Positions 2,429 through 33,258 of a stretch of DNA of 36,798 nucleotides are shown here, piece by piece. Numbering within the stretch: the stretch's first letter is position 1; each line of letters opens with the position of its first letter. The notes below the pieces were generated by a model. That model searched no databases and was not told the origin of the DNA. It saw nothing but the letters and a program-made list of their open reading frames with translations. A program made the translations under genes and the position numbers. The stretch is taken from NCBI GenBank assembly GCA_022511005.1, contig JAFLSJ010000009.1:1-36798 (forward strand), given 5' to 3'. This DNA is from Ruminococcus sp. Lineage in GTDB: Bacteria; Bacillota; Clostridia; Oscillospirales; Acutalibacteraceae.

Positions 2429-2680
2429 TTGACATATACATATATACCCCGCGGAGTATGTGCAAGAGAAATTCAGGTTGAAATTGAAGACGGTATTATT
2501 AAAAGTGCTGAATTTGCAGGAGGCTGCAACGGAAACACCCAGGGTATTTGCAAGCTTGTAGTGGGAATGGATGCAGAGGACGCTATTGAAAGACTTGAAG
2601 GCATTGATTGCAGAGGAAGAGGTACATCTTGTCCCGATCAGTTGGCAAATGCACTAAAGGAAGCATTAGAATTGGAATAA
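2429..2680 (+). CDS. TSCPD domain-containing protein (TIGR03905-like)
   Basis: MTYTYIPRGVCAREIQVEIEDG...GGCNGNTQGICKLVVG...CRGRGTSCPDQLA; contains the TSCPD motif. TTG at 2429 preferred over the ORF-track start at 2408 because GGAAAGG lies just upstream. Confidence 0.8.
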   Translation: MTYTYIPRGVCAREIQVEIEDGIIKSAEFAGGCNGNTQGICKLVVGMDAEDAIERLEGIDCRGRGTSCPDQLANALKEALELE

Positions 2681-2695
2681 TTCATTTCATGTTTA

Positions 2696-2853
2696 ATACT
2701 AAACACTGATAAAAAGTGGATTGTATTTTCGAGAAGATTTTGTGTTGTACGCGAACTGTACCGCAGCAAGGCTGTCGCCTTGCGATGATACAGGACAAAG
2801 TACAATGCAAAATATTCCGAAAAGACTGTCTGTTTTTTATTAGTGTTTAGTAT
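2696..2853. repeat. MITE-like long imperfect palindrome (element 1), TIR ATACTAAACACT(g/a)ATAAAAA
   Basis: Left ATACTAAACACTGATAAAAA and right TTTTTATTAGTGTTTAGTAT are inverted repeats; the interior also pairs, with central GCAAGGCtgtcGCCTTGC. Interior sequence resembles 33104-33258 on the opposite strand. Confidence 0.75.
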
Positions 2854-2860
2854 AAGTAAC

Positions 2861-2892
2861 AAAGCGGCATTGGTTTACAATGCCGCTTTTAT
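2861..2892. terminator. Bidirectional rho-independent terminator
   Basis: AAAGCGGCATTG-gttta-CAATGCCGCTTTT, perfect 12-bp stem with A/T flanks; lies between the + TSCPD gene and the - small ORF. Confidence 0.8.
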
Positions 2893-7809: not shown

Positions 7810-7895
7810 CAGTGTAGGGACAACCCTTGCGGTTGTCCGAAAATACAATTATACATTTTTTATTAGCGGACGACCGCAAGGGTCGCCCCTACTGT
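7810..7895. repeat. Imperfect inverted-repeat element (CAGTgtAGGGaCaACCCTTGCGGTtGTCCG / CGGACGACCGCAAGGGTCGCCCCTACTG)
   Basis: ~28-bp arms in opposite orientation separated by an AT-rich ~27-nt spacer in an intergenic region. Confidence 0.75.
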
Positions 7896-18630: not shown

Positions 18631-18709
18631 ATTTTTTCGTCGCTTTTTTCAAAAACGACCGAGGTCCAAAGGGCGAGCAGCCCTTTGTTGCGGTCACTGA
18701 CCTCGAAAC
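18631..18709 (-). repeat. Interspersed palindromic repeat, family R3, copy A
   Basis: Reverse complement gtttcgaggtcagtgaccgcaacaaagggctgctcgccctttggacctcggtcgtttttgaaaaaagcgacg aligns closely to 21060-21146. Confidence 0.8.
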
Positions 18710-18813
18710 CCTATTCTACTAAAATATAACTTTTATAAGATAGATTTTATTTCTTTATTGTGATATACTTTAACTAATGATAAATTTTTACAATGAAAAA
18801 AGGAGTTATTAAA

Positions 18814-21037: not shown

Positions 21038-21059
21038 ATATTTATTATTTAATTAGAGA

Positions 21060-21146
21060 GTTTCGCCGTCACAGACCGCGACAAAGGGCTACTCTCCCCT
21101 TGACCCTCGGTCGCTTTTTGAAAAAAGCGACGTAAAAGCTTTTTTG
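21060..21146 (+). repeat. Interspersed palindromic repeat, family R3, copy B
   Basis: gtttcgccgtcacagaccgcgacaaagggctactctccccttgaccctcggtcgctttttgaaaaaagcgacg; matches the reverse complement of 18631-18709; contains perfect stem GTCGCTTTTT-ga-AAAAAGCGAC. Confidence 0.8.
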
Positions 21147-33103: not shown

Positions 33104-33258
33104 ATACTAATCTTCGATAGAATATTCGACTTTTCAGCATATTTTCCGCTGTACTGCGTCCCTCTCCTTGACTGGCGTCAGCCAAACTTCGTCGTCGTTC
33201 TTGTCCAGCACAAAATCTGTTCGAAAATCTTTTCACCTATTCTATCGGCGATTAGTAT
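33104..33258. repeat. MITE-like element (element 2), TIR ATACTAATC(tt/gc)CGATAGAATA
   Basis: Left ATACTAATCTTCGATAGAATA vs right TATTCTATCGGCGATTAGTAT; interior matches element 1 (TTTTCGA..AGATTTTGTG(c/t)TG... and ...AGTACA..G.AAAATAT.C.GAAAAG on the minus strand). Confidence 0.8.

Follow-up and report, generated by a model that had tools for sequence, protein, structure and literature searches.

The 156-bp sequence downstream of a TSCPD-domain gene in the window, i.e., the whole stretch of 36,798 nucleotides that was analysed, is best explained as a non-autonomous, almost fully palindromic MITE that is mobilised in trans by an IS630-family transposase, a reading to which a probability of about 0.9 is assigned. 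Its identity as a MITE, proposed before in a preliminary description of this DNA, is supported by the presence of many copies with intact ends, by an empty site and by autonomous elements with the same ends in related genomes. This kind of MITE is already known (RUP with IS630-Spn1; PMC3049150). The unusual part is the target-site duplication, which is TNA and is common to a wider IS630 subgroup. The features in the window, with the evidence for each in brackets, are:

2429 to 2680, plus strand: TSCPD-domain gene, upstream of the element and syntenic anchor for the empty site (comparison with relatives)
2694 to 2696, no strand: left target-site duplication TAA (sequence; single TAA at the empty site)
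2697 to 2852, plus strand: palindromic MITE (non-autonomous element), 156 bp (fold, BLAST matches, ends common to dozens of copies)
2697 to 2716, plus strand: left terminal inverted repeat TACTAAACACTGATAAAAAG (18/20 identity to the end of a congeneric IS630 element)
2766 to 2783, plus strand: central hairpin GCAAGGC-tgtc-GCCTTGC (sequence; alignment of copies)
2833 to 2852, minus strand: right terminal inverted repeat TACTAAACACTAATAAAAAA (18/20 identity to the same congeneric IS630 end)
2853 to 2855, no strand: right target-site duplication TAA (sequence; flank comparison)
2861 to 2890, plus strand: terminator-like hairpin (AAAGCGGCATTG...CAATGCCGCTTT), downstream of the TSCPD gene (kept in the empty-site relative)
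33105 to 33257, minus strand: second, diverged family member (TACTAATC subfamily) with the flanks TTA and TTT (end-pattern match, alignment)

Both the terminal inverted repeats and the hairpin at the centre that were recorded in the preliminary description are present in the sequence. The palindrome described there also stands, and only its size of 158 bp has to be reduced to 156 bp: the earlier coordinates took in one extra base at either end, an A and a T that are part of the TAA duplications. Folded as single-stranded DNA the element reaches −42.1 kcal/mol compared to −17.0 ± 2.9 kcal/mol for shuffled sequences (z = −8.8), none of the 200 shuffles folds as well, and most of the element's length takes part in the fold. 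In most other copies the central hairpin shows the compensatory variant GAAAGGC/GCCTTTC. The terminal 20-mer occurs twice in the window compared to 0.07 occurrences expected by chance. The element is without any coding gene inside, in agreement with the earlier view that it has no coding potential; the minus-strand ORF at 2638–2862 merely spans it and is without support as a gene. An Rfam search of the window returned tRNAs only.

Only two copies had been known from the preliminary description. The host MAG (1.62 Mb, 117 contigs, 89% complete) holds 22 BLAST matches to the element, and the terminal 19-base pattern matches 86 times with at most two mismatches, 43 of these exact, compared to 17 for the backward control. 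Many copies are interrupted by a contig end inside the hairpin, and shorter derivatives of 47–70 bp with intact ends are found alongside the copies of about 156 bp. Ruminococcus sp. HAN026 contains a copy that is about 94% identical to the window copy at a different locus, which speaks for recent movement. Strict end matches with TNA outside are present in 32 of 100 congeners (controls: 0), and the richest congeners contain about 50 to 92 strict end matches per genome. In a scan of GTDB contigs the matches fall mostly into Oscillospirales and related Clostridia, next to scattered single matches elsewhere that are chance-like in appearance. Families in other genera have TACTAAWC-type ends in common and differ in their interiors (100, 147, 156, 182, and 256 bp), and those examined with both ends are each strong hairpins with z-values of −5.9 to −10.3. 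Phage and plasmid records gave no DNA match to the MITE.

Several variants of the element were observed. At L029:1401-1590 the central hairpin module (GGACGCCGCAAGGCTGGCGCCTTGCAAGGACGAA) is doubled in tandem resulting in a 190-bp element, and copies of 200–350 bp in other congeners may have the same tandem-module origin. Larger elements at loci of G106 and G105, e.g., L122:350-388, carry a nested 39-bp inverted pair (TACTAATCCTTGATAAAAAGATTTAATCAGATATTAGTG) in one arm, as if the ends were duplicated internally. In G120, a stretch of 2477 bp bounded by two ends was considered as a candidate, but it consists of ordinary genes between two unrelated remnants. The pair L072 and L279, which resembled a full element and its deletion derivative at one site, proved on alignment to occupy different sites. 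The window also contains other repeats. A second palindromic repeat family, unrelated to the TACTAA family, has GTAGGGRC...YCCCTAC ends, a length of about 70–110 bp and arms of varying sequence, with copies at 7814–7892 of the window and at L068:3274-3354, L015:298-367 and L061:79-148. Finally, a 69-nt inverted repeat (18644–18712 and 21057–21125 of the window; 80% complementary) flanks an aldo/keto-reductase-like and a branched-chain-aminotransferase-like gene and is probably another intergenic repeat family.

The insertion separates the TSCPD gene from its terminator-like hairpin. The closest relative at the locus is G008, whose TSCPD protein is 88% identical, and here the site (L318) is empty: the gene is succeeded by the spacer, a single TAA and the terminator-like hairpin with no element in between, and the flanks align through the single TAA. 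The element is found at the TSCPD locus in none of the 29 relatives inspected, G008 included, the inspected stretch in the 28 others being the 240 bp downstream of the TSCPD gene. A second likely empty-site case exists for another copy (L119 versus L040). The preliminary description had raised the possibility that the sequence is single-copy or conserved without empty sites; this was examined, and the outcome favours the MITE. The copy between the TSCPD gene and the terminator-like hairpin is regarded as a tolerated insertion without sign of host function.

The target-site duplication is a 3-bp TNA located outside TACTAA...TTAGTA. In intact insertions the left three bases equal the right three in 60 of 94 distinct cases, compared to a mean of 22.7 and a maximum of 34 upon random re-pairing, this set being partly fetched with a pattern including TNA at one end. 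In the subset fetched without use of the flanks, 17 of 29 are identical, with a maximum of 16 in 10,000 shuffles. For the 74 copies with TNA on both sides, the N is identical in 59 (expected: 23), and the commonest duplications are TTA or TAA. The duplication of TA that had been suggested earlier is not supported by these data. A MITE of the IS630/Tc1 type that duplicates TA, with the ends read as TA/CTAA...TTAG/TA, would account for the TA that nearly all copies have at each end, and it would follow the general rule stated for the IS630-Tc1-mariner group (PMC8533490), to which fungal Fot with TAA and Sailor with TATA are exceptions (PMC8533490, PMC7386202). However, it is improbable here: a conserved A precedes the TA and a conserved T follows it, and most copies have one and the same second outer base on both sides, also among those with C or G there (13 of 23). 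The TA model offers no reason for this. In alignment with the empty site, a single TAA scores slightly higher (482) than the longer junction of the TA model (478), a difference that is weak alone. No report of a TNA or other 3-bp duplication in bacterial IS630 elements was found in a search of papers rather than of ISfinder.

In an alignment of 24 homologous MITE copies (A1; window 2697–2852 included), compensatory change is seen at 25 of 49 pairs, corresponding to 96 cells compared to 28 in shuffles, and sliding the pairing partner abolishes this signal. It may be due either to selection for the hairpin or to an origin by arm-on-arm fold-back and repair. A hairpin that is so strongly conserved, together with the plus strand being the better RNA folder in 24 of 24 copies, would also suit a host-retained regulatory RNA or 3′ structure that is not a transposon. 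This is nevertheless very improbable in view of the varied genomic sites, the target duplications and the empty site. Moreover, the neighbouring genes show no orientation preference, as 11 of the 17 copies located between co-directional genes are antisense and six are sense, and on the symmetric pair set the excess of G.U pairs shrinks to 13 pairs with G.U versus five with A.C. An RNA role deduced from the G.U excess was rejected, the argument being partly circular and unmatched by gene orientation. As a separate observation, the plus-strand fold of the alignment contains 94 cells with G.U pairs versus eight with A.C mismatches, and the pairs common to both strand folds 19 versus six cells, which amounts to a strand asymmetry.

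Concerning the mobiliser, the first lead came from three fragments near contig ends, in which the C-terminus of a transposase runs into the end sequence of the family. Using the protein from these C-terminal fragments as query led to complete elements:

L288, 1104 bp, in the order: TACTA ends, duplication TTA
L289, 1116 bp, in the order: TACTA ends, duplication TTA
L290, 1117 bp, in the order: TACTA ends, duplication TAA
L361, 1111 bp, in the host genus: TACTA ends, duplication TAA

In the complete elements a winged-HTH ORF overlaps a DDE ORF, and the two are presumably joined by a frameshift. Compared with Pfam and NCBIfam, the ORFs of L290 match IS630, and the transposase scores 86.6 bits for DDE_3 (cut-off 28.6) and 147.9 bits for IS630 NF033545 (cut-off 100). 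These elements support the mobiliser of the IS630/Tc1-mariner type named in the preliminary description, and the full-length transposase element with the same terminal repeats that it advised to look for was found in relatives. In the host MAG, which is 89% complete, the transposase gave no match, and a copy was presumably lost from the host or is missing from its assembly. Searching with the recovered transposase identified it or its fragments in 19 of 161 congeners, mostly as short C-terminal pieces at contig ends. A search for PF13358 (DDE_3) in 40 congeners gave no match, and the distribution of the transposase is therefore patchy; this null result at first pointed away from IS630, which was reversed by the wider search. 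The IS end that matches best, TACTAAACACTAATTAAAAGTAGAC in the congener G529, has 18 of 20 positions in common with either end of the window MITE. No recognisable left end was found for this IS, and the copy is either 5′-truncated or an assembly chimera. In the same genome (L362:901-2085) the IS630 DDE ORF lies in one frame with an adenylation-domain-like ORF, representing a 5′-truncated IS joined to a gene or an assembly chimera. Beyond the ends, the interiors of MITE and IS show no evident homology. That the mobiliser belongs instead to the IS5 group (ISL2/IS1031/IS427) or to the PIF/Harbinger type, which usually account for TNA/TWA duplications and in this respect fit the TNA observed, can practically be dismissed, since in 60 congeners PF13359 gave a single weak match below the cut-off, paired TACTAA ends are absent at loci with PF01609 or PF13586, and IS630 elements with the right ends exist. 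In the congener searches no DDE_Tnp_1, DDE_Tnp_1_2 or DDE_Tnp_4 transposase with these ends was found.

For mobilisation by IS630, the 1.1-kb elements with TACTAAWC...GWTTAGTA ends would supply the transposase in trans. The enzyme would recognise the terminal repeats of the MITE and excise the element, which would then be joined into a TNA target with duplication of 3 bp. The transposase of the relatives probably acts on this MITE, and the chemistry is presumably cut-and-paste.

The properties of the duplication extend to more distant elements. Seven plasmid-borne IS630 relatives from three other phyla start with TAC and have a 3-bp TNA duplication:

Trichormus: both flanks TAA
Nostoc: both flanks TCA
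Deinococcus: both flanks TCA
Lichenicola: both flanks TAA
Rhodovastum: both flanks TGA
Azospirillum: both flanks TCA
Roseomonas: both flanks TAA

For the relatives from Paraburkholderia and Acidithiobacillus, TAC ends and a TNA duplication were not clearly seen. The spacing from the last catalytic D to the E amounts to 31 residues in nine of the ten transposases measured and to 32 in one. DDE_3/Tc1 types typically have 34 residues at this position, a spacing from which the measured transposases depart. With about even odds, there is a broad bacterial IS630 clade covering Oscillospirales, cyanobacteria, Deinococcus and alphaproteobacteria, which combines TAC...GTA ends with 31 residues between D and E, duplicates TNA and not TA, and in Oscillospirales repeatedly spawned MITEs with unrelated but mostly palindromic interiors.

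Among known systems, RUP of S. pneumoniae with IS630-Spn1 (about 107 bp) is likewise AT-rich, highly base-paired, gene-free and present in high copy with IS630-like ends (PMC3049150). However, its ends and its host are different, the duplication here is a 3-bp TNA, and the transposase here was found in relatives and not in the host assembly. As far as described in papers citing it, the Nezha MITE of cyanobacteria is also a hairpin MITE, whose presumed driver is an IS acting in trans, i.e., ISNpu3-like elements (PMC3049150, PMC10969869). TAC ends with TNA duplications also occur in the cyanobacterial IS630 elements related to the present transposase. Fungal Fot elements (pogo superfamily; PMC7386202) belong to the same wider IS630-Tc1-mariner group and have a 3-bp duplication, TAA, whereas they represent a eukaryotic pogo clade and the present elements a bacterial IS630 lineage that accepts any N in TNA. 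Sailor (DD82E; PMC8533490), also of the IS630-Tc1-mariner group, similarly departs from TA by using TATA, but catalytic spacing (78–111 in Sailor) and target both differ.

As a summary, a high-copy repeat that has had no name so far and occurs in Oscillospirales of gut and rumen is tied to its likely enzyme. Many of the contig breaks in these MAGs are explained by the repeat, as a large proportion of its copies lie at contig ends. Moreover, a bacterial IS630 lineage departs from the TA rule that is used in the annotation of the group, and software expecting TA would therefore misplace the ends of these elements.
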